Origin: Microbulbifer sp. YPW16
GTDB lineage: Bacteria > Pseudomonadota > Gammaproteobacteria > Pseudomonadales > Cellvibrionaceae
Direction: 5' to 3'
Length of the DNA stretch: 64,000 nt
NCBI RefSeq assembly: GCF_021290385.1
Contig: NZ_CP089928.1
Span: forward strand, 3,676,001 to 3,740,000
Position 1 is the stretch's first letter; the number at the start of each line of letters is the position of its first letter. Of this stretch, positions 5,491 through 14,830 are shown in pieces. The notes under the pieces are model-generated. The model saw only the letters and a list, made by a program, of their open reading frames with translations, did not search any database and was not told the DNA's origin. The position numbers and the translations under genes were made by a program.

Positions 5491-5523
5491 GCCAAAATCC
5501 AACTCTGACCCCAATTATTTTTC
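5491..5523 (+). repeat. short interspersed repeat, copy 1
   Basis: GCCAAAAT, five variable bases, then CTCTGACCCCAATTATT. Two further copies lie at about 6839-6871 and 6899-6926 in the same orientation. Similar sequence is often left beside small IS200-like or RAYT transposase genes in marine gammaproteobacteria (from memory); no such gene is present here. Confidence 0.6.
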
Positions 5524-5596: not shown

Positions 5597-6112
5597 TCAA
5601 GCTTCTCCATTGGCCCTGGCAATGATCTCGGGCACCAAATCAGCAGGAAACAGCGATTTGGACAAGTACTGCCGGCCGCCGGATTTGGCCACCAGAATCA
5701 GTCCCAAATCGGTTTCAATGACGCGCTCTATATCAGGCCACAATAGCGCTGTTTGCGTATGGGCTGTCTGGGTCTGGATACCGTGATCATCTACAGTTAA
5801 TTGCACTTCGGCGCCCGCACCCTTGCCCCACATCTGCCGTGTCAACCACCAGGCGCGCCGGAATCGAATATGCAGCAGCTCCAGAATCGCTAAAGCGATC
5901 AATATGTAACCGGCGACCTTGGGCTGCTCTGTGAACGACAGTATGCCAGCACCGGCAGCAAACAGTAATAGCGGGAACAGGTAGTTGGGTTTGGCACCTT
6001 TACCGTGGGGCAAAGACTGATCGAAACACTCGGCAAGGTATTCGCGGGATAGCGTAAATTGGGTATTAAACGGTTGCACGGGAGCCACGGGTTGTATTTG
6101 GTTGCCTGTCAT
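5597..6112 (-). CDS. YcxB-like membrane protein
   Basis: 171 residues from the ATG at 6112 (a TTG at 6169 would add 19 residues and is less likely). Two adjacent membrane helices (about 46-62 and 66-84) are followed by RRAWWLTRQMW and a soluble C-terminal domain of beta character: AEVQLTVDDHGIQTQTAHTQTALLWPDIERVIETDLGLILV. This layout matches the YcxB-like family, whose C-terminal domain resembles a PH fold; function unknown. The final SLFPADLVPEIIARANGEA is also typical. No clear ribosome-binding site (an AAGG lies rather far upstream). Confidence 0.6.
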   Translation of the reverse strand: MTGNQIQPVAPVQPFNTQFTLSREYLAECFDQSLPHGKGAKPNYLFPLLLFAAGAGILSFTEQPKVAGYILIALAILELLHIRFRRAWWLTRQMWGKGAGAEVQLTVDDHGIQTQTAHTQTALLWPDIERVIETDLGLILVAKSGGRQYLSKSLFPADLVPEIIARANGEA

Positions 6113-6258
6113 GTCTGAAGTTATACCTTGCCCCAGGGATTGTAGAAAGGTGTTTTGGGACTTCTCCAACCCTGGTGGGCGAGGAACACAGCCGCGAGGG
6201 ACGACATTCCCAGTACGCCGCCAACACCAGCTCGCTGGTGTGCCCTTGCTTGGCCTCG

Positions 6259-6648: not shown

Positions 6649-6838
6649 GGAAGTTCCTTTTTTCTTGCCTAACGTCTTGGTGGGCCGGCGGTACGGAGCA
6701 GTGCACAGTACCGGTGGGCTCAGGATCGGATTCTGGTTGCCTGTGATTCTTTTGTATGTATTTAAGAGCCCCAGGGTTAGTCACATAAGTGTGGCCAGAT
6801 CAGGCTTAAGGCACGCTCTTATTCTGAGTAATCCAGTG

Positions 6839-6871
6839 CCAAAATGTTGATCTGACCCCAATTATTATTGG
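6839..6871 (+). repeat. short interspersed repeat, copy 2
   Basis: GCCAAAATGTTGATCTGACC followed by CCAATTATTATT; shares the 15 bp core CTGACCCCAATTATT with copies 1 and 3. Confidence 0.6.
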
Positions 6872-6898
6872 CTTTAATCTGGCGGGTTAGATTGGGTG

Positions 6899-6926
6899 TC
6901 AAAATTTTACTCTGACCCCAATTATT
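6899..6926 (+). repeat. short interspersed repeat, copy 3
   Basis: GTCAAAATTTTACTCTGACC followed by CCAATTATT. It abuts the truncated attC at 6927-6970, which suggests that the element carrying the repeat replaced part of that attC. Confidence 0.6.
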
Positions 6927-6965
6927 CCGGAGGGTCGCAGGCCCGGAGCAAATTGCCCGGCCTTG

Positions 6966-7430
6966 TTATGCATTGCCAGCGGACTCCATTTTAGACTCGA
7001 TGAATTCAATTAAATCTTCTAGGTTTTCGGTATGAGTAGAGATATATACCTTACCATGCTTTCCAGCGCTCGCTACGACTGCCTCTATCCCGTTATTACT
7101 GAATGGGTAAAGTTCTTTAATCTCTGAAAGAGGGATGCTATTTGTAAGAAACCAATAGTTCCGTCCAATTAGATTTTCATTTTCGATTCTTATAGATGCA
7201 AATCTGAATGCCGCAGCTATTAAAAAACCGAACACAGCAGAGAATGCAAATATACCTAAGAAAAATAAAGGTAGCTGCCATAGTGCGACATGCTCAAATG
7301 TCTTTTCTAAATTGAAACCCGAAGCAAAAAGCCTCGCTATGAAAACGAATGTAACAGGTATGGATATTGCCATACTCATAAACTTCGTAAGCTTCTTGCC
7401 CAGCCCTATCCAGTCTACTTGGTACTTCAC
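6966..7430 (-). CDS. integron cassette gene: membrane protein, PH-like tail
   Basis: 154 residues. Two membrane helices (about 19-38 and 52-75) are followed by a soluble part, RIENENLIGRNYWFLTNSIPLSEIKELYPFSNNG, which resembles the small PH-like domains of bacterial two-helix membrane proteins. No named family is certain. The stop codon (6966-6968) lies inside the attC remnant downstream, and the ATG follows the attC at 7446-7529 by 15 bases, so the gene is a cassette. AT-rich composition. Confidence 0.65.
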   Translation of the reverse strand: MKYQVDWIGLGKKLTKFMSMAISIPVTFVFIARLFASGFNLEKTFEHVALWQLPLFFLGIFAFSAVFGFLIAAAFRFASIRIENENLIGRNYWFLTNSIPLSEIKELYPFSNNGIEAVVASAGKHGKVYISTHTENLEDLIEFIESKMESAGNA

Positions 7431-7445
7431 TAAGCCTCCTTTGAT

Positions 7446-7529
7446 GCATAACGCCGCGGTTTGGGGCTGACATGGAGCGCCAGCGGAATGGCAGTCCCAG
7501 CCGAAGGCGACAACACCGCCTTGTTATGT
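7446..7529 (-). other. attC recombination site (cassette boundary)
   Basis: 84 bp imperfect palindrome. On the minus strand it begins ACATAACAAGGCGG and ends CGCGGCGTTATGC. Internal arms GGGGCTGACAT and ATGGCAGTCCC pair with one bulged base, the hallmark of attC folding. It lies between two short minus-strand genes, with the stop of the upstream gene inside it. Confidence 0.75.
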
Positions 7530-7883
7530 GTGTTTTGCCCGAAACTCTCTCTCATCAATCTCCGCCTGTTTTTCGATCTTGCGAACACCTTCAACTACTG
7601 CCTCGATCGATTTGGCCCCTTTTAGCAAAAGGCTAAATTGGGAGCATTTCTCCGCTAGATCATCGACTTCGAATAGTGCACCGCTTTCCCAGAACTCTTC
7701 GGGAAGAAAACCTCTTCTATATGGGGCATCTATATCTCGGTTGATTGCTTTATTTATTAGGGAAGAAGCCCGACTTAGTATATTTTTGGCCTCTATATAT
7801 GAGTCAGAGTATTTGACCAATAATGACTTAAATTCCGAGGCAACTTGAGACAGCTCGTTTTTATTAATCTTCTCGCTAAACAT
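7524..7883 (-). CDS. integron cassette gene, unknown soluble protein
   Basis: 119 residues, no signal peptide or membrane segment, mostly helical and highly charged (SEKINKNELSQVASEFKSLL...AVVEGVRKIEKQAEIDEREF). No family recognised. The TAA stop (7524-7526) overlaps the attC downstream, and the ATG lies 18 bases past the CGTTATG core at 7901-7908, as usual for a cassette. That upstream attC is interrupted by the insertion sequence that follows. Confidence 0.6.
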   Translation of the reverse strand: MFSEKINKNELSQVASEFKSLLVKYSDSYIEAKNILSRASSLINKAINRDIDAPYRRGFLPEEFWESGALFEVDDLAEKCSQFSLLLKGAKSIEAVVEGVRKIEKQAEIDEREFRAKHT

Positions 7884-7911
7884 CCTGAACTCTCATAGAC
7901 ACATAACGAGC

Positions 7912-9688
7912 CTGTAGAAAAACAGGATGACAACCTGATATCCCATCGGCTCTCTTTCTTATAAGTTTAATGATCACGATTTAAACACATCCGTTTTACA
8001 TAATCACTCATTGCACGTATTAAGGGCCTCTTTTGCGCAGACGAGTGTGGATATCCCTGTGAATCAGTGGATCGCCCCGTATCTCATCAACTTCTCAATG
8101 TTATGCACCAGGCAGAACATACGCCATTGCCCCTGGACCTTCTCACGACCACGTAAAGAGAAACGGCCTAGCCGTTTATTGGTACCAATATTACCGAACA
8201 CCGGCTCTACCACCGACATCCGGTGACTATAGATCGTCTTTCCCGCGATACTGTCGACGCGCTTTTTCATCCAGTCGGTCGCCGTGCGGCCATTGGTCCA
8301 GGTGGTGGACACCTGCCGGCCGTGGCCGTCGCGGGTATCGGCAGAACCGGGGTTGCGCATGCACTGGTGTTTGAGGTGACAGTGGCGGCAGTCAGTCAGG
8401 CGGCCCTCAAAGAACAGCTTGCGCTTGCCCTCACTGACTTGCTCCTCCCTGTAGAGAAGCAGTTCTTTACCGGCTGGGCAGATACAGGTCTTGCGGCGCT
8501 TATCGAAGGTGAATTCCCTGGCAGGAATCACCTGCTTGACGCCCACCAGGGTATCGCGATGACGCTTGCCATACTTTTCTTTTTGTTTGGCGAACGCCTT
8601 GTCCCGCGAGCGGAACTGGTTGTCGGGGATATAGGCGTTGATGCCTTCCTCTTTCAGATAGGCATTATTGCCCTCGTTGGAGAAACCAGTATCGGCGGTC
8701 ACGATGGTGCCATCGGCGAGGATGTCCGGATGGATGCCGGCTTTCCGGTAGTGTGCGGTGAGACCATCCAGCATGGGCTTGAGCGTATGGTATTCCTGGC
8801 CCTCGCCGAAAGCCTGCGCCTCGACAATGATCTGGTGTTTCTTGTCCACTGCGGCGACACCGTTGTACCCCTGGATGGTGCCCTTGCTGGTGGTCATCTT
8901 GGCCGACTCATTGTCGGTGATATTACTTTTGACTTCTTTCGGGGTCTTGCCTTGCCCCATCCTTGGGGCTTGCGTCTTTAGGAACTTGTCTATCTTCTCG
9001 AAGTGCTGCTTGAGCGTATCCGTCGCCTGCGCCAGTCGCTGCTTGCGCTCCCGCTCGGCGGGCTTGCGGCCATCCAGCTTCTTGTGTTCCTTGATGCAGT
9101 GCCGGATCTTCTTGCGGATCTTGGCCTGCTTTTGCTCGAGTTCCTTGAATGTACCGGAGTGCTCCTTACTGGCATTCGACGGCATCTTGCAACCATCAAT
9201 CGCAAACAGCTCGTTGCCCAGCAGTCCCTCCTGGTCACATACCATCAGTACCTGCTCAAAGATCGACTCGATCGCATCCGGGTAACTGCTGACAAAGCTG
9301 GCGATACTGGTGAAGTGCGGCACTGAATCGCAGGAAAGCGCCTTGAAGATGATATTGTGCTCACATTGCCACTGGATCTCGCGGCTGGAGGTGATGCCCT
9401 TGGAGTATGCGAACAGGATGATCTTTAACAGAATGGCGGGATCGTAAGCCGATCGACCACCGGCGTCATTCTGGTACTTTTCGTAGAAGGCAGACAGGTC
9501 GATATGGTCATCGATCAGGTGGTGGAGGGTAAATTCGAAGGTATTCGGCTGCAATTGCTCTTCGAAATTGATCACAACCATCGCGTCCTGGTTGTAATTG
9601 TACCGCTTGAAGTTTGGCATGGCGGGATTCCCCTTTTCGACCTGCCAATTCTATCAAAAAACACTATATTTTAAGAGTTTTTCTACAG
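7912..9688 (-). mobile_element. IS1182-family insertion sequence
   Basis: 1,777 bp element bounded by perfect 12 bp inverted repeats, CTGTAGAAAAAC at 7912-7923 and its complement at 9677-9688, with one transposase gene between. It sits within an attC: right of it the array continues with the attC body at 9693-9832, left of it is the short core CGTTATGTG at 7901-7908. No identical flanking duplication was seen (flanks GAGC and CAGA). The reading frame and both ends are intact, so the copy may be active. Confidence 0.85.
8064..9620 (-). CDS. IS1182-family DDE transposase
   Basis: 518 residues, full length for the family. N-terminal DUF772-type domain (DDHIDLSAFYEKYQN...AYDPAILLKIILFAYSKGI) at about 38-110. 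The catalytic DDE core has Asp in LFAIDGCKMPS (about 141), Asp in IVTADTGFSNE (about 310) and Glu in MSVVEPVFGNIG (about 470). A long charged helical insertion (roughly 160-225) separates the first acidic residue from the second. Cysteines in CICPAG and CRHCHLKHQC suggest a zinc-binding segment near 375-420, also usual in this group. It inserts and excises the element via the flanking 12 bp terminal repeats. ATG start. Confidence 0.93.
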   Translation of the reverse strand: MPNFKRYNYNQDAMVVINFEEQLQPNTFEFTLHHLIDDHIDLSAFYEKYQNDAGGRSAYDPAILLKIILFAYSKGITSSREIQWQCEHNIIFKALSCDSVPHFTSIASFVSSYPDAIESIFEQVLMVCDQEGLLGNELFAIDGCKMPSNASKEHSGTFKELEQKQAKIRKKIRHCIKEHKKLDGRKPAERERKQRLAQATDTLKQHFEKIDKFLKTQAPRMGQGKTPKEVKSNITDNESAKMTTSKGTIQGYNGVAAVDKKHQIIVEAQAFGEGQEYHTLKPMLDGLTAHYRKAGIHPDILADGTIVTADTGFSNEGNNAYLKEEGINAYIPDNQFRSRDKAFAKQKEKYGKRHRDTLVGVKQVIPAREFTFDKRRKTCICPAGKELLLYREEQVSEGKRKLFFEGRLTDCRHCHLKHQCMRNPGSADTRDGHGRQVSTTWTNGRTATDWMKKRVDSIAGKTIYSHRMSVVEPVFGNIGTNKRLGRFSLRGREKVQGQWRMFCLVHNIEKLMRYGAIH

Positions 9689-9692
9689 CCAG

Positions 9693-9832
9693 AACGCCCA
9701 CAGCAGGGGCGGCTTACCTTGTGCGCATTTTGCGCGAAAATGGGAGCAAAGCGACCGCGCAATATGTGCACAAGGTAAGCCGTCCCGCGGAGGCCCGAAG
9801 GGCCATAGCAAACTGCCTGTGTTTGTTAAGGC
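9693..9832 (-). other. attC site with long stem, interrupted by the IS at its 3' end
   Basis: 140 bp. Minus strand begins CCTTAACAAACACAGGCAG and ends CTGCTGTGGGCGTT. CACAGGCAG pairs with CTGCTGTG leaving one bulged G, as attC L''/L' arms do. A second, near-perfect 23 bp arm pair (GGCTTACCTTGTG at 9711-9723 and its partner at 9769-9784) extends the stem. The insertion sequence begins four bases after the terminal GCGTT. Confidence 0.72.
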
Positions 9833-9835
9833 TCG

Positions 9836-10126
9836 CTAGCAACCAGGGCCGAAAAACTCAGAAACACTATTGGGAGCCATGTATAACGCCTGCCCACTGT
9901 ACCAAGCCATGATAAGCAGCACTATAAACACAGTGGTCGCACCCACTCCGATCTTTAAAGAGTTACCTGAAGCCCGATAACTCGTAGCCACAGACAATAC
10001 AAAATTTGCTCCAGCTACGGCAGTAACAGTTTGCCGAACCGTAATGTAACCACCACACTGGTAGAAACCAAGGAAAACGACGCAGGCCAAAGCTATAGAA
10101 ATTGAAATTATTGCGAGTAGTTTCAA
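9836..10126 (-). CDS. integron cassette gene, small membrane protein
   Basis: 96 residues with about three membrane segments (3-20, 31-47, 58-76), glycine and cysteine at the ends (QCGGYITV, FFGPGC). No family recognised. The stop lies 4 bases from the attC at 9693-9832 and the ATG lies about 16 bases from the attC at 10142-10220, so it fills a normal cassette. Confidence 0.55.
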   Translation of the reverse strand: MKLLAIISISIALACVVFLGFYQCGGYITVRQTVTAVAGANFVLSVATSYRASGNSLKIGVGATTVFIVLLIMAWYSGQALYMAPNSVSEFFGPGC

Positions 10127-10141
10127 TGAAGTTCTCGTGGT

Positions 10142-10220
10142 GCCTTAACGCTGCCATCACCGGTGCCAAAGCCGAAGCACAGCGGAGGTTTTGGCATCCG
10201 GTGCATGGCCTGGTTATGCC
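10142..10220 (-). other. attC recombination site
   Basis: 79 bp. Minus strand GGCATAACCAGGCC ... GGCAGCGTTAAGGC. Arms CACCGGATGCCAAA and TTTGGCACCGGTG pair with a single extra A on one side. The stop of the upstream lipoprotein gene is inside it. Confidence 0.75.
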
Positions 10221-10651
10221 TTGGAGGACACGGCTATGCGCCACTGCCCATTATCAGGATCTTTGACAAAGCTTGCCTCATCACGAGGAAAGCACTGGCC
10301 AGAGAGTTCCGAGAAGTCACCCTGACCTCTTGAATGAACTACATATTCGAGAACCTCATTCCCCGTCGCAAACACGATCACATTGTGTCCGTCTGAGTGC
10401 AATACATCTGTATGTTCGCCGACATTCCATTCAAAGCCCAAGGCTTCACTTGACCTTTCGTTGTAAGGCCCGAAAAAGCAAACTTGTGACCAGTTGTCGC
10501 CAGCGAGCCCGGCGAAGTCAATAGATCTATATTCGCTTTCCCGTAGCTCCTCCGAGATTGCCTTACTCAAATCACTTGCGACGTAGGCTGGATCAGAGCA
10601 AGCCACCAGAATACAGGCCGAAATCAAAACTAGCGTTCTAGTCATAGGCAT
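10214..10651 (-). CDS. integron cassette gene, predicted lipoprotein
   Basis: 145 residues. The N-terminus TRTLVLISACILVACSDPA is a lipoprotein signal with lipobox LVAC, so the mature protein should start at Cys18 and be membrane-anchored; Asp after Ser (CSD) does not settle inner or outer membrane. The rest is soluble, with cysteines in VCFFGPYNERSS and GQCFPRDE. No family assigned. Two in-frame ATGs, 10651 and 10645: the first overlaps the attC core GCGTTATGCC, so initiation may occur at either. The TAA stop (10214-10216) lies in the next attC. Confidence 0.65.
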   Translation of the reverse strand: MPMTRTLVLISACILVACSDPAYVASDLSKAISEELRESEYRSIDFAGLAGDNWSQVCFFGPYNERSSEALGFEWNVGEHTDVLHSDGHNVIVFATGNEVLEYVVHSRGQGDFSELSGQCFPRDEASFVKDPDNGQWRIAVSSKA

Positions 10652-10736
10652 AACGCCCTAATAACCGGCAGCCGAAGCGCAGCGTAGGCTGTCCGGCGCG
10701 TGTCTTTCGCGCGCGAAGTTCATTAGCTTGTTAAGC
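10648..10736 (-). other. attC recombination site
   Basis: About 89 bp. Minus strand GCTTAACAAGCTAATG ... TTAGGGCGTTATGC. Arms CTAAT / ATTAG and CCGGCAGCC / GGCTGTCCGG pair. The ATG of the lipoprotein gene begins within the 3' core. Confidence 0.75.
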
Positions 10737-10742
10737 ATGGGC

Positions 10743-10961
10743 TTACTCTGAATCCGGATTATGAACAATTAGCCCTGGGAGAGATTCACCTACATTAAAA
10801 TGCTCATGCTCCCAAGAGCTACCTTCTTTCTCGATACCATCCGCACAATCAGCTAAAAAGGCAGCCAAAGACCTCAGAACCTCAGGCCCCGCTGAAATGG
10901 TCACTTCAGTCAATTCCAAAAGCTGATTATCTGTCGATTTCGAATAGCCGTAAATTTTCAT
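10743..10961 (-). CDS. integron cassette gene, Imm32-like small protein
   Basis: 72 residues, soluble. The pattern MKIYGYSK...LLELTEVTISAGPEVLRSLAAFLADCADGIEK...WEHEHF resembles the Imm32 group of predicted immunity proteins, found both beside polymorphic toxins and as stand-alone cassettes. This is a by-eye resemblance from memory. No toxin gene is adjacent: the flanks are attC sites on both sides. If it is Imm32 it could act as an orphan immunity protein. Confidence 0.6.
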   Translation of the reverse strand: MKIYGYSKSTDNQLLELTEVTISAGPEVLRSLAAFLADCADGIEKEGSSWEHEHFNVGESLPGLIVHNPDSE

Positions 10962-10968
10962 TAGTGAT

Positions 10969-11058
10969 GCTTAACGCCCCGCACAAGGGCAGACAAATAA
11001 GCGCAGCGTTTTGGCTGTCCCAGCGACCAAAGGGAGCGATTGCTGCGGCTTGTTAAGT
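10969..11058 (-). other. attC recombination site
   Basis: 90 bp. Minus strand ACTTAACAAGCCGCAG ... GGGGCGTTAAGC. Arms GGGCAGACAAA and TTTGGCTGTCCC pair with one or two extrahelical bases. Confidence 0.75.
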
Positions 11059-11454
11059 TTACACTTCATGCTCAGCCAGGTACTCACATTTTGGATTAGG
11101 GCCAACCAAAATGGTTTTTAACCAAGAGATTGAAAATCCAATGCACGCTAGAACTGCCATTCCCGCCCCGATTGTTCCCGCAAAACTTGCCACGAGAAAA
11201 AATGTATCACCGAAATAGCTATTAAAATAGATTCCAAGAATTGCCAAGAGGGAAAAGTAGGCGATGAATTGTACAAGCCAACTAAAAGCATACCTTATTC
11301 TTCTCGCTTTGAAGCTAGATAGAGCTTCCCCTTCTTCTGGAAATGGGCCAAACCAACTAAATGCCACAAAAGTGATAATATTTGGCCTCATAAACCTCAA
11401 GGTCACTAAGACAACGAAAACAATAAGATAAAATATTGCGATTTTTTCGATCAT
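11059..11454 (-). CDS. integron cassette gene, membrane protein
   Basis: 131 residues, about three membrane segments (4-21, 55-80, 85-112), with a cytoplasmic-looking loop SFKARRIRYAFSW rich in Arg/Lys and a charged tail GPNPKCEYLAEHEV. No known domain. The stop adjoins the attC at 10969-11058 and the ATG is a few bases from the attC at 11459-11551. AT-rich. Confidence 0.6.
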   Translation of the reverse strand: MIEKIAIFYLIVFVVLVTLRFMRPNIITFVAFSWFGPFPEEGEALSSFKARRIRYAFSWLVQFIAYFSLLAILGIYFNSYFGDTFFLVASFAGTIGAGMAVLACIGFSISWLKTILVGPNPKCEYLAEHEV

Positions 11455-11458
11455 AGAA

Positions 11459-11551
11459 ACTTAACGCCCGGCTTTGGGGCGGACTTGGAGCTGCGAAGCA
11501 GCGGAAAGGCCGTCCCAGCCCCGAAGGGGCAACAACAGCCGCTTGTTAACG
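11459..11551 (-). other. attC recombination site
   Basis: 93 bp. Minus strand CGTTAACAAGCGGC ... CCGGGCGTTAAG. Arms GGGGCGGACTT and AAGGCCGTCCC pair; the loop region has GCTGCGAAGCAGC. The stop of the upstream gene (11546-11548) lies in the 5' core. Confidence 0.77.
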
Positions 11552-11956
11552 TCCGTACCAATGCCCAAGGCTTTCTCCGGCCTTTAGTAGCTCGTCTAAC
11601 TGCTGACATGCATATTTTGCATATTCCCAGCCAATTCTGGAAATTGGCATAATGTAGACGCCTATGACTTTATTTTCTTCCTTTTTGTATACAGCCATGA
11701 ACTTAGAGTCATGGGCTAAAGGTATTGCATCACTACAGATTTCATCAAATTTATACTTGTTGTACGTGGCGCATGACTCTCTACAACCGTAAATTTTGAT
11801 TCGGACTAACGTATCCGGCCATTCATAGAGCGGGCCATCTGACATATTGAAAATCGATTGTAGATCCAACGGTATATCGACTTTATATGCAGTCTCCCAC
11901 AAGACAAGCTCTCTTGTTGTAGCAGCACTTGGAGATTCGGGCTCTACTATCTTCAT
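11546..11956 (-). CDS. integron cassette gene, possible SUKH/SMI1-like protein
   Basis: 136 residues from the ATG at 11956, which directly follows the attC; the frame stays open further upstream through the attC, but that stretch is the recombination site, not protein. Soluble. ELVLWETAYKVDIPLDLQSIFNMSDGPLYEW resembles the N-terminal part of SMI1/KNR4 (SUKH) proteins, where a helix and LP..L..F....NG precede a Tyr/Trp. SUKH proteins often serve as immunity proteins to contact-dependent toxins. The later GVYIMPISRIGWEYA is not diagnostic, so the assignment is tentative. Confidence 0.5.
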   Translation of the reverse strand: MKIVEPESPSAATTRELVLWETAYKVDIPLDLQSIFNMSDGPLYEWPDTLVRIKIYGCRESCATYNKYKFDEICSDAIPLAHDSKFMAVYKKEENKVIGVYIMPISRIGWEYAKYACQQLDELLKAGESLGHWYGR

Positions 11957-11958
11957 GA

Positions 11959-12042
11959 CATTAACGCCGCCAACAGGCGACCATTTGGAGTGGAGCCAAA
12001 GGCGGAACGGAAAATGGGTCGCTCTGCTTGGCCTTGTTAACT
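11959..12042 (-). other. attC recombination site
   Basis: 84 bp. Minus strand AGTTAACAAGGCCAAGC ... GGCGGCGTTAATG. Arms GCGACCATTT and AAATGGGTCGC pair with one bulge. It lies between the stop at 12045 and the ATG at 11956. Confidence 0.77.
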
Positions 12043-12044
12043 TT

Positions 12045-12488
12045 TTACAGGCTACCAAGCGCCACCTCAATTTCACTTAAGATTGCTGATAGTGAGCGGC
12101 CTTTAGGTTGATTTGCTAGCTCAAAAGCTACCTCCATAGGTGCGAAAAGAGCATTTGGGTTGCTGAATGAGGAGAATTCACCAACAACATAATGGCCATA
12201 ATAGCGAGAGCTAGGAGCTTCACACACGCTCCAGCAACCACCGTATTTCTCGACAAACAGCTCTCCAATGAAATAGCCAATTCGAACAATAATCCAGTTC
12301 TTCACATCATCTGAGATATCTTGCTCCGATAGCCAGTTGCTTATTGGTTCAAGAAAAGCAACTGGATTGATCAGGATTTCATGTGGATTTTGGAAGCCTA
12401 ACTTTTGAGAGAAATCGTGAAGCACAGGCATTCGTTCCTCTCGGAATGAATCGAATCTTTCTTTCTGTTTTTCGATGTCTATGGACAT
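12045..12488 (-). CDS. integron cassette gene, first of the array, unknown soluble protein
   Basis: 147 residues, no signal or membrane segment. N-terminal charged helix (SIDIEKQKERFDSFREERM), then a compact domain with WIIVRIGYFIGELFVEKYGGCWSV and SRYYGHYVVGEF. The Tyr/Trp/Gly-rich centre looks like the small domain found in many cassette-encoded hypotheticals, but no family is named. Upstream, the minus strand has a lone core site CTGTTAACTTT (12507-12514) where the first cassette would join attI or an older attC. Confidence 0.55.
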   Translation of the reverse strand: MSIDIEKQKERFDSFREERMPVLHDFSQKLGFQNPHEILINPVAFLEPISNWLSEQDISDDVKNWIIVRIGYFIGELFVEKYGGCWSVCEAPSSRYYGHYVVGEFSSFSNPNALFAPMEVAFELANQPKGRSLSAILSEIEVALGSL

Positions 12489-12822
12489 TCTCGATCTCTA
12501 TTGGAAAGTTAACAGTTTATTCAAAAGACGCATCTATATATCCATTCGTCGTCTATCTACAAATAGTGATGCGTGAGTGTTATCAGATAACTCATATTTT
12601 TCAATACATTAGAGCCTTTTCGAGGGTGGCAGCTCAGGCAAAAACGTGATGCGTCTTGCTATCCAGCTGAGCCACTAACCCTTTCTTCTCCGAGAATGCG
12701 CTTTAAAATCAATAGATTAGAGGGGCTCCTCGGGCAGATACACGACGCGTCTCGTGATCTGGGTCTTTTTCCTGACGTTCCTGACTAATTTTGGGCTCGG
12801 CTCGCTATTGTGGGATACAAAA
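12489..12822. other. non-coding right border of the cassette array
   Basis: 334 bp without a gene. Contains the core GTTAAC at 12508-12513, a 10 bp inverted pair AAGACGCATC (12523-12532) and GATGCGTCTT (12648-12657), and the tRNA-like fragment described separately. No integrase gene or remnant was recognised. Confidence 0.5.
12648..12681 (-). pseudogene. tRNA 5'-half remnant
   Basis: On the minus strand GTGGCTCAGCTGGATAGCA matches the D-arm region of bacterial tRNAs such as tRNA-Arg (GTAGCTCAGCTGGATAGAGC). The match stops before the anticodon arm and no T-arm (GGTTCGAATCC) follows. It looks like a fragment of a tRNA gene, the usual scar of an integration event, at the edge of the accessory region. 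Confidence 0.4.
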
Positions 12823-12844
12823 AAAGCGGGCTTTCGCCCGCTTT
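12823..12844 (-). terminator. rho-independent terminator of nrdB
   Basis: On the minus strand AAAGCGGG-CGAAAG-CCCGCTTT is followed by a run of T. It lies 70 bp after the nrdB stop. Confidence 0.9.
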
Positions 12845-12914
12845 CAATACCTCTCTTCCTGTGAGCGACTACTTGTTGTAGTTGTCCCTGTTTATTGCTT
12901 CTTGGTTGTTCCTA

Positions 12915-14180
12915 CTACCACTGAAGCGCACCGCCGGTCTGGTATTCGATAACCCGCGTCTCGAAGAAGTTCTTCTCTTTCCGCAGGTCCATGATCTCGG
13001 ACATCCAGGGGAAGGGGTTCTGGGCACCCGGGAACTGCTCTTTCAGGCCCAGCTGGCTCAACCGGCGGTTGGCGATGAAGTGGAGGTATTCCTCCATCAT
13101 GTTGGCGTTCATGCCCAGTACGCCGCGGGGCATGGTGTCGCGGGCGTAGGCCACTTCCAGTTCCATGCCTTCCAGGATCATCTGCGCCACTTCCTGCTGG
13201 AACTCCGGGGTCCACAGGTGCGGGTTTTCCAGCTTGATCTGGTTGATGACGTCGATGCCGAAGTTCAGGTGCATGGACTCGTCGCGCAGGATGTACTGGA
13301 ACTGCTCGGCAACGCCGGTCATCTTGTTGCGGCGGCCCATGGACAGGATCTGGGTAAAGCCGCAGTAGAAGAAGATGCCCTCGGTCACGGCGTAGAAGGC
13401 GATCAGGTTGCGCAGCAGCTCCTGGTCGGTTTCCACGGTGCCGGTCTTGAAGTTGGGGTCGCCGATGGACTGGGTGTGCTTGAGGCTCCAGGCGGCTTTC
13501 TTGGCAACGCTGGGCACCTCGCGGTACATGTTGAATACCTCGCCCTCGTCCATGCCCAGGGACTCCACGCAGTACTGGTAGGCGTGGGTGTGGATGGCTT
13601 CCTCGAAGGACTGGCGCAGCAGGTACTGGCGGCACTCCGGGTTGGTGATGTGGCGGTAGATGGCCAGCACCAGGTTATTCGCCACCAGGCTGTCGGCGGT
13701 GGAGAAGTAGCCCAGGGAGTATTCCACGATGCGGCGCTCGTCCTCGGTCAGACCCTCGGGGTCTTTCCACATGGACACGTCCTTGTTCATGTTCACTTCC
13801 TGCGGCATCCAGTGGTTGGCGCAGCCGTCCAGGTATTTCTGCCAGGCCCAGTCGTACTTGAAGGGCACCAGCTGGTTCAGGTCGGCGCGGCAGTTGATGA
13901 TGCGCTTCTCGTCCACCTCGATACGGGCGGCGCCCATTTCCAGCTCTTCCAGGCCCGGGGCGGGGTCCATGTCGGCTACGGCGGCCCGTGCCGCTGCCAC
14001 GGCGTCGGAGGCCGGCGCGGTGGTAACGGTGGATTGGGCCGCGGGCGACGCCGGTGCGGCGTGGCTCTCATAGGAGACAGCCGGTTCGGACACCTGCTGT
14101 TGCAGTGTTTCCGGCGCCGGTCGCGGTTCAGTGCTTTTCTTTTCTTGTGACGGTGTTTCGAGATCGTCCCAGCTAAGCAT
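12915..14180 (-). CDS. nrdB: ribonucleotide reductase class Ia, beta subunit
   Basis: 421 residues from the ATG at 14180 ([10 protein letters not shown], the usual start in pseudomonad-type NrdB; AAGG six bases upstream). The subunit holds the diiron-tyrosyl radical cofactor and passes the radical to NrdA. After a 75-residue Ala/Pro/Glu-rich N-terminal linker, the ferritin-like core carries the iron ligands and their surroundings: Glu/His in [14 protein letters not shown], Glu in [11 protein letters not shown] and Glu/His in [11 protein letters not shown]. The C-terminal tail ([10 protein letters not shown]) should bind NrdA. It is downstream of nrdA on the same strand, but 650 bp separate them, much more than in a normal nrdAB operon. 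Confidence 0.95.
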
Positions 14181-14830
14181 ATTGGCCTTTCCGTCTTTTC
14201 TGCTGCGTGAATTGCTGCGTGTGTTCGATTCTTGTTGCCCCGGTGTGGCCACCGTTCTGCGGGTTAAGTCAGTGCGCCGGGGGCGGGGTTTCGGAACCGT
14301 CCGCGCCAGGGAAGGCGCGGCCGGAGCTACAGGGATGTATGTCTGCGTTTCCGAAATCCCGTCCCCGGTGCGCTGACGCCACAGGGGTGGTCCAGGCACC
14401 AGGGCAGTATTTGTGTCCGGGTTATTTTTAACCCGGGCTGGTGCAGGGCTTCCTGCGCCAGATCAAGTTTGCGGTGGAATCGGGTTCCCACCATTCGGGT
14501 TTCGAGTGCTGCCACTCCCCGGTCCGTTACTTCCCGCGCTTCCCCCATAGAAGGGCAGGGGACCGGGGGCGCAGCTTATGGTCTTAGCCGCAGTGCGGTT
14601 AGACGCTCTCCCCCGAGAGACTTTACGGCACCTTCATAAATCTACTGCGCGTGCGCCTGGCGGCGTCCGGCGGTGCTGGTGCGCCAGCCCGGTCGGCATG
14701 CTCATGTATTACCTATACACTCCGCTGCCTCCGCTCCGGCGGCCACCACCAGCCACCCGCTCGCTACGATTTCTGAAAGTGCCTTTAAAGGTGCCTTTCA
14801 GGTTTCCCCTTGCGGGGAAACTACTACTTC
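14181..14830. other. 650 bp structured spacer between nrdA and nrdB
   Basis: No convincing gene. Dense inverted repeats: the long pair 14271-14294 / 14351-14374, CCGCGCC/GGCGCGG (14301-14320), CCGGGTTA/TAACCCGG (14417-14436), CCCCGGTCC/GGACCGGGG (14517-14525 and 14558-14568) and TAGCCGCA/TGCGGTTA (14585-14601). Near the nrdA stop a smaller hairpin (TTTCCCCGCAAGGGGAAA on the minus strand) lacks a T-tract. This spacer could attenuate nrdB or host a structured RNA. Confidence 0.5.
14271..14374 (+). ncRNA. candidate structured RNA hairpin
   Basis: Arms 14271-14294 and 14351-14374 pair over 24 positions. All four mismatches become G-U wobbles if the plus strand is the RNA, but A-C mismatches on the minus strand, so an RNA antisense to the nrd direction is favoured. 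The 56-base loop holds a second perfect 7 bp hairpin. No promoter was identified. Family unknown. Confidence 0.35.

Follow-up and report, generated by a model that had tools for sequence, protein, structure and literature searches.

A Cassette Array Headed by attI Without Its Own Integrase in Microbulbifer sp. YPW16: A Candidate Integron Platform Loaded in trans

Introduction

Is an array of integron cassettes with no integrase gene beside it the residue of a decayed integron, or may it still receive cassettes from an integrase made elsewhere in the chromosome? Here, we address this question for one locus of Microbulbifer sp. YPW16, a cassette array lying behind an nrdB-like ribonucleotide reductase gene (hereafter nrdB). 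Positions refer to the whole 64-kb stretch that was analyzed (64,000 nucleotides, hereafter the window), which corresponds to 3,676,001–3,740,000 of a single contig of 4,194,587 bases. With seven attC matches and no intI, the array falls under the working definition of a cluster of attC sites lacking an integron-integrase (CALIN; at least two attC, intI not nearby), the label given to it in an initial annotation made from the sequence alone. In integron surveys roughly every second array is a CALIN, and such arrays have been proposed to be degraded integrons. We find that this array is headed by an attI site, and its sequence context makes it probable, at roughly three chances in four, that it is an integron platform loaded in trans.

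Results and Discussion

The Cassette Array and Its attC Sites

Read from nrdB, the locus comprises the following features, with covariance model scores in bits (G numbers designate genomes, L numbers loci and C1 the contig of this genome; ORF, open reading frame; IS, insertion sequence).

12915–14399, minus strand: nrdB-like ribonucleotide reductase gene, anchor of the locus, with a counterpart in 47 of 48 Microbulbifer genomes
12822–12845: terminator of nrdB, occupying the place where intI starts in the intI-linked copies
12526–12821, minus strand: leader upstream of attI, with GACGCGTC-like repeats, from the leader alignment
12510–12564, minus strand: attI, with core TTTGAATAAACTGTTA at 12510–12525; the crossover triplet GTT adjoins the first cassette
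12045–12488, minus strand: cassette 1, ORF of 147 aa, no known family; 74% DNA match in G004
11959–12042, minus strand: attC 1, 37.6 bits
11546–11956, minus strand: cassette 2, ORF of 136 aa, no known family
11459–11551, minus strand: attC 2, 84.8 bits
11059–11454, minus strand: cassette 3, ORF of 131 aa, no known family; DNA matches of 77% in G067 and 74% in G068
10969–11058, minus strand: attC 3, 81.3 bits; 83% over 99 bases to an attC in the intI-A array
10743–10961, minus strand: cassette 4, ORF of 72 aa, Imm32 (immunity protein 32; Pfam PF15566, E = 1.9e-9, over the curated cut-off)
10648–10736, minus strand: attC 4, 63.6 bits
10214–10651, minus strand: cassette 5, ORF of 145 aa, no known family; 83% DNA match in G017
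10142–10220, minus strand: attC 5, 46.5 bits
9836–10126, minus strand: cassette 6, ORF of 96 aa, no known family; DNA matches of 92% in G061 and 83% in G003
9693–9832, minus strand: attC 6, R' box split by the IS; 33.1 bits, outside the training set
7909–9692, minus strand: IS1182-like insertion sequence, transposase ORF 8064–9620 (518 aa), 4-base repeats AACG at 7905–7908 and 9693–9696
7524–7883, minus strand: cassette 7, ORF of 119 aa, no known family
7446–7529, minus strand: attC 7, 68.6 bits
6966–7430, minus strand: cassette 8, ORF of 154 aa, no known family
6667–6972, minus strand: probable eighth attC, broken by an inserted repeat with TCTGACCCCAATTATT-like ends; judged by eye, the covariance model being silent

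The seven attC sites read in the initial annotation were all recovered by a covariance model, with coordinates agreeing to within a few bases, and no other match was found in the window at E ≤ 0.1. This model was our own, built from 13 sites (six in the window and seven in three other arrays of the genome), and was used instead of two home-made attC finders that were dropped, one being too loose and the other too strict. Circularity is partial: six of the seven window sites are in the training set, and 18 of the 31 matches in the genome, including stretches read directly, lie outside it, as does the interrupted site at 9693–9832 (E = 2.5e-6). Standard pairs fill 86.8% of the pair cells of the 13-site alignment vs. 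68.6% in shuffles, and 40 cells have changed on both sides vs. 15.2; both signals vanish once partners are slid by 1–3 columns. The count of pairs with change on both sides was nothing unusual (9 vs. 8.0 in shuffles). At all seven sites the strand opposite the genes gave the better fold under RNA parameters. The window sites, which are alike as had been noted, show the pairing arms, ends and extrahelical base of attC in covariation, model matches and folds. No Rfam family matched at gathering scores within the window.

Across the whole genome, 31 attC matches were found at E ≤ 1 (the weakest at 0.041, with 150 of 1979 first-look candidates scored), all of them in eight clusters and none as a scattered singleton. 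Two additional single-match places, at about 480 kb and about 2347 kb, came from stretches read directly and bring the total to ten. The description of the array as AT-rich holds in relative terms, since its G+C content is 46.0% (IS excluded) vs. 61.0% in the window. Its initial description was incomplete in three respects, having overlooked the attI site at 12510–12564, the 1784-bp IS at 7909–9692 and the probable eighth attC at about 6667–6972.

attI Sites and Integrases of the Genome

As initially reported, no intI flanks the array; the gene is absent from the entire 64-kb window, so the locus is not a complete integron, in which intI stands beside attI and cassettes. An integrase elsewhere in the genome had been put forward as the source, and two full-length integron integrases are indeed encoded in the same chromosome, adjoining attC of the same type: intI-A (C1:20764–21771) and intI-B (C1:2076917–2077906). 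They score 424.8 and 402.6 bits against the integron-integrase model TIGR02249 (curated cut-off 265), compared with only 150.2 bits, under the cut-off, for a XerD-like protein of the same genome. The window array is separated from the integrases by about 1.6 Mb, or by about 0.53 Mb the other way round if the contig is circular. In an integrase query, Microbulbifer species ranked first, the best being M. sediminum at 91%.

Each of the two intI genes has the motif GCGTCYTTTGAATWAACTGTTA about 300 bases upstream, and the motif recurs at three more places, including the start of the window array. The exact attI core thus occurs at five places in the genome (none with the reversed-pattern control), each followed by attC after about half a kilobase. 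Copies linked to intI have the start of that gene about 300 bases upstream of attI; at the window array, the leader upstream of attI ends in the nrdB terminator instead. Four further attC places (480, 1347, 1765, and 2765 kb) have a core with two mismatches ahead of the first attC, and three of these four have 20 upstream bases in common. Because matching at up to four mismatches on the opposite strand also gave one match in each of two of five stretches, these variant sites rest on their position and on the common upstream bases. Overall, attI or a close variant heads nine of the ten attC places (five exact, four with two mismatches), the sole exception being the place at 3204 kb, where neither was found, and intI is present at two of the ten. 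CALIN therefore stands as a definition for the window array, but a bare attC cluster it is not, since its attI is the one common to the intI-linked arrays.

We also asked whether the conserved motif could be a promoter or regulator element of the arrays, with integrases acting on pairs of attC alone. The leaders do hold repeated GACGCGTC-like palindromes that are potential operators. However, the motif sits about 300 bases from the intI start and ends in GTTA with first cassettes directly after it, and in two species the identity between near-identical cassettes appears to start exactly at its GTT, which makes the regulatory explanation highly improbable.

Within the leaders themselves (window 12526–12821, L015–L019), several GACGCGTC-like palindromes are followed by CTAA..TTGA stretches; the palindromes are possibly operators or IntI binding repeats. 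A second type of attI was also observed, in which a two-mismatch core follows TGNCCAGATATGNCCA-like repeats just past a terminator or gene end (L024:11036–11051, L025:6669–6684, L106:8552–8567); the TGNCCAGATATGNCCA-like motif was detected in 5 of the 48 Microbulbifer genomes. In an ungapped comparison of the 44 bases upstream of the core, in which certain pairs are shifted by one base, similarity averaged 0.52 within genomes (48 pairs) and 0.41 between genomes (582 pairs). Concerted evolution of attI is not claimed on this difference, which is only moderate.

Many relatives carry a second IntI lineage, 41–52% identical to intI-A, that is absent from the genome of the window. In the five copies read (L223–L227), which have open frames of 326–374 codons, the upstream site is different, ending in GATACAAATGTTA in four of five and accompanied by GTCGTNANGACC-like repeats; the in-frame stops listed for this lineage seem to fall beyond the normal end of the ORF. 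Upstream of these five copies no attI core was detected within four mismatches, save one weak match. The lineage was considered as the server of the variant attI sites and rejected on the strength of these few cases, its own upstream site being different.

The nrdB Locus in Relatives

In the window, 393 bases separate nrdB from the attI behind it, and an attI without intI occupies the same locus in G011, G030, and G027, making four species with that of the window. By pattern, no attI site was found in the other 11 of the 14 nrdB regions fetched from relatives. The site can also be empty, because nrdB is closely followed, in G021, G012, and G035, by the gene that lies beyond the array in the window (5597–6169).

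At this locus, attI is conserved beyond its neighborhood in G030 and G027. Compared with G030 in 55-base segments going upstream, identity is 48/55 at attI and then 31/55, 37/55, 26/54, 38/55, and 39/55, with 53/55 at the terminator. With G027 it is 42/55 at attI, then 27, 27, 25, 32, and 20 of 55, and 50/54 at the terminator. Counted from the alignment with the 16-base core excluded, attI still agrees at 32/39 (G030) and 28/39 (G027) positions.

The closest case, G011, lacks intI at nrdB as does the genome of the window, and its leader is 97.8% identical over 416 bases, with attI identical at 55/55. The cassette proteins of the window had no match at E ≤ 1e-5 in the nrdB regions of G011, G030, and G027, of which that of G011 stops 2.7 kb past attI at a contig end. 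At the DNA level, six window cassettes returned only an 87-base attC match in G011 (up to six candidates per genome scored). Cassettes at the nrdB attI thus changed recently, since the leaders are nearly alike yet the cassettes differ.

These observations bear on the explanation that the array is a dead remnant, a complete integron that lost intI and has been frozen since, its attI a fossil. Such a history would accord with the proposal that CALINs are degraded integrons, as put forward in the portion of PMC9024848 drawn on here. On the other hand, it sits poorly with an attI conserved above its surroundings and with the wholly different cassettes of G011 behind a 98% identical leader.

The intI-less nrdB locus of G027 carries an array with 23 attC matches (L140:1830–13987), larger than a decayed integron would suggest; the two intI genes of that genome lie about 1.7 Mb or more away from it. 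In eight relatives (G010, G064, G003, G009, G029, G036, G004, and G014), nrdB shares its contig with an intI at a distance of about 21–25 kb, a hint that an integron may once have stood close to this locus.

Genus-Wide Survey

Among 48 genomes of the genus, 32 contain the exact attI core (none with the reversed control) and 43 contain intI at E ≤ 1e-40, no genome having more than three intI. For a survey that avoids contig breaks we used the 15 single-contig relatives, 11 of which have the core, in 28 copies. An intI lies within 2.5 kb upstream of only five of these copies. Sites of the attC type follow within 4 kb downstream at 24, of which 19 are without intI, and all 103 attC matches lie downstream of a core and in the correct orientation, with none upstream.

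When relics of intI were sought, the initial IntI residues were weakly matched at the offset expected for the gene in L158, L168, and L165, with no E value below 1.9. Although the offset would suit a dead remnant, these relics are suggestive only.

Cassette Sharing Between Arrays With and Without intI

Cassettes are shared between arrays that have intI and arrays that do not. Cassette 1 of the intI-A array is cassette 2 of the intI-less array at 1041 kb (100% over 607 bases), and its cassette 3 matches cassette 1 of the latter (99.8% over 472 bases). The two arrays are 1.0 Mb apart, their leaders are 68% alike and the order of the cassettes differs; the matches are bounded by the attI and attC crossover points. 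In G027, two attI sites 0.8 Mb apart, one linked to intI and the other not, are followed by first cassettes that are 97.7% identical over 398 bases, and the 44 bases upstream of the two cores are 50% alike. In G010, one cassette is common to two intI-less arrays (99.8% over 496 bases). The near-identity of these cassettes argues for recent sharing, and the pattern is what would be expected from IntI acting at distant attI sites. Near-identical cassettes in first place at an intI-less attI in two species also speak against frozen arrays, and we regard the dead remnant as unlikely.

Alternatively, the arrays could stem from off-target insertion at genomic attG sites, or from block transfer by homologous recombination or IS. 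Insertion at attG is on record (PMC12444791, in the portion of its text used here), and IS are present in several arrays. The window array nevertheless starts at an attI rather than a random site, at the same place in four species; common cassettes are reordered, with unlike flanks and with ends at attI and attC; and the IS copies lie within attC, not at array ends. This is the least probable of the explanations that we weighed.

The Insertion Sequence at attC

The 1784-bp element in the window array is present in six copies in the genome (the others on C1 at 23.6, 1344.8, 2079.2, 2347.8, and 2766.4 kb), which are 100% identical and in a single orientation. All six stand behind an attC, confirmed by the covariance model in each case, and are followed by CGTTA; the insertion falls in the R' box in every case. 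Outside the array, GGCGTTA is found six times in 58 kb of window sequence, which extrapolates to perhaps 400 in the genome compared with about 40 attC; six of six copies at attC thus exceeds the expectation from the motif alone. The IS is a parasite in its own right, for which the R' box of attC is the insertion site.

Insertion sequences of the IS1111-attC group are aimed at attC in one orientation and have a DEDD transposase. Membership in this group was rejected, as DDE domains were found and no DEDD transposase of the IS110/IS1111 kind: the only Pfam matches of the transposase at E ≤ 0.01 are DDE_Tnp_1, DDE_Tnp_1_6, and DUF772. The NCBIfam model NF033551 (IS1182) matches residues 32–513 at 266.8 bits, just under the curated cut-off of 270, and we therefore call the element IS1182-like.

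With up to five candidates scored in each genome, 27 of the 293 genomes of the order were found to encode relatives of the transposase at E ≤ 1e-120. From among the copies listed outside this genome, 42 were read (28 loci from the transposase search, 13 fetched and one from the attI survey), and 34 of them are readable; six copies have no more than 45 bases of contig before them, and in two the left end was not recognized. CGTT precedes 34/34 and GCGTT 31/34; copies within one genome are not independent. An attC match (E ≤ 1, the weakest at 0.07–0.11) ends within 15 bases of the element in 24 of the 34. By eye, four of the other ten are attC-like (L188, L195, L198, and L209), four are not (L192, L199, L213, and L216) and two are ambiguous. 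The exceptions outside attC suggest that the IS recognizes bases around GGCGTTA. An arm-pairing test of the left flanks was not discriminating, as 34.5% of 1236 background CGTT sites reached six pairs, and was not used for these counts.

Cassette Contents and Repeats

Seven of the eight cassette proteins lack a Pfam match at E ≤ 0.01, the remaining one being Imm32, and four cassettes have DNA relatives in other Microbulbifer at 74–92% identity. Repeats of CTCTGACCCCAATTATT were noted at 5500–5520, 6850–6870, and 6905–6925, two of them inside the interrupted attC at 6667–6972, and may be part of a small mobile repeat.

A Proposed Platform Served in trans

We propose that IntI-A or IntI-B, made elsewhere in the chromosome, would recombine circular cassettes into the attI behind nrdB, which is the reaction that IntI normally performs at the attI beside its own gene. 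This genome has about ten such places, two with intI, and the arrangement extends through the genus. Most simply, intI would have been lost from older complete integrons, rather than attI copied alone. That an integrase acts at intI-less attI sites today, and which of the two serves which site, we infer from sequence comparison. For the wider picture of a distributed integron, in which attI platforms stand genome-wide behind the terminators of host genes, one or two IntI act in trans and cassettes are shuffled among addresses, we see even odds.

Several points weigh against a platform loaded in trans. The exact core is missing from 16 of 48 genomes of the genus, including 4 of the 15 single-contig relatives, and a looser attI pattern with three mismatches gave 0–2 reversed-control matches per genome. 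In the 28-site survey, four exact cores (L153, L154, L164, and L179) had no attC match within 4 kb, and core conservation there proves nothing because the cores were picked by exact match. The sequences do not give the direction of transfer, and shared cassettes could predate the loss of intI. In G033, 595 bases are 99.2% identical between a stretch with intI and one without, a match that we did not resolve as a cassette. Finally, a simple scan of 12300–13000 found no sigma-70-like promoter, so a Pc promoter is unsupported at the window array.

A conserved attI without intI, together with cassette turnover, turns into a testable question whether CALINs are served in trans. If so, integrase and platform can evolve apart, with one integrase, many insertion addresses and varied expression contexts, and some CALINs of other bacteria, at present interpreted as decayed, may be functional satellite platforms whose attI goes unrecognized.

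Comparison With Known Systems

Sedentary chromosomal integrons of the Vibrio type consist of one large chromosomal array with similar attC and many cassettes of little-known function. The Microbulbifer system resembles them in its chromosomal location, similar attC, many cassettes of unknown function and one kind of IntI and attI. It differs in having about ten places instead of one large array, most of them without intI. The IS1182-like element likewise resembles the IS1111-attC group, to which PMC12444791 also refers, in targeting attC in one orientation, whereas its transposase is of the IS1182-kind DDE type and it has a 4-base target repeat; IS1182-like elements would be a second, unrelated parasite family settled on attC. 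In the open-access literature, which leaves most subscription journals outside, we found nothing on Microbulbifer integrons, no case of several attI-headed, intI-less arrays in one chromosome and no attC-targeting IS1182-like element.

The CALINs of Xanthomonas (PMC12444791) likewise lack intI and occupy conserved chromosomal positions in several species; the part of that paper used here sees in them traces of ancestral activity and makes no mention of attI at those loci. That IntI may act on CALINs in trans is a known idea from the same text. According to the portion of PMC9024848 considered, detection of attI by IntegronFinder 2.0 is limited to class 1, so that attI-headed CALINs would be invisible to routine surveys. 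Like known CALINs, which are mobilizable in trans in principle (PMC12444791, same portion), the window array is a chromosomal cluster of attC with intI not nearby; unlike them, it is headed by an attI that is common to the intI-linked arrays and kept across species.

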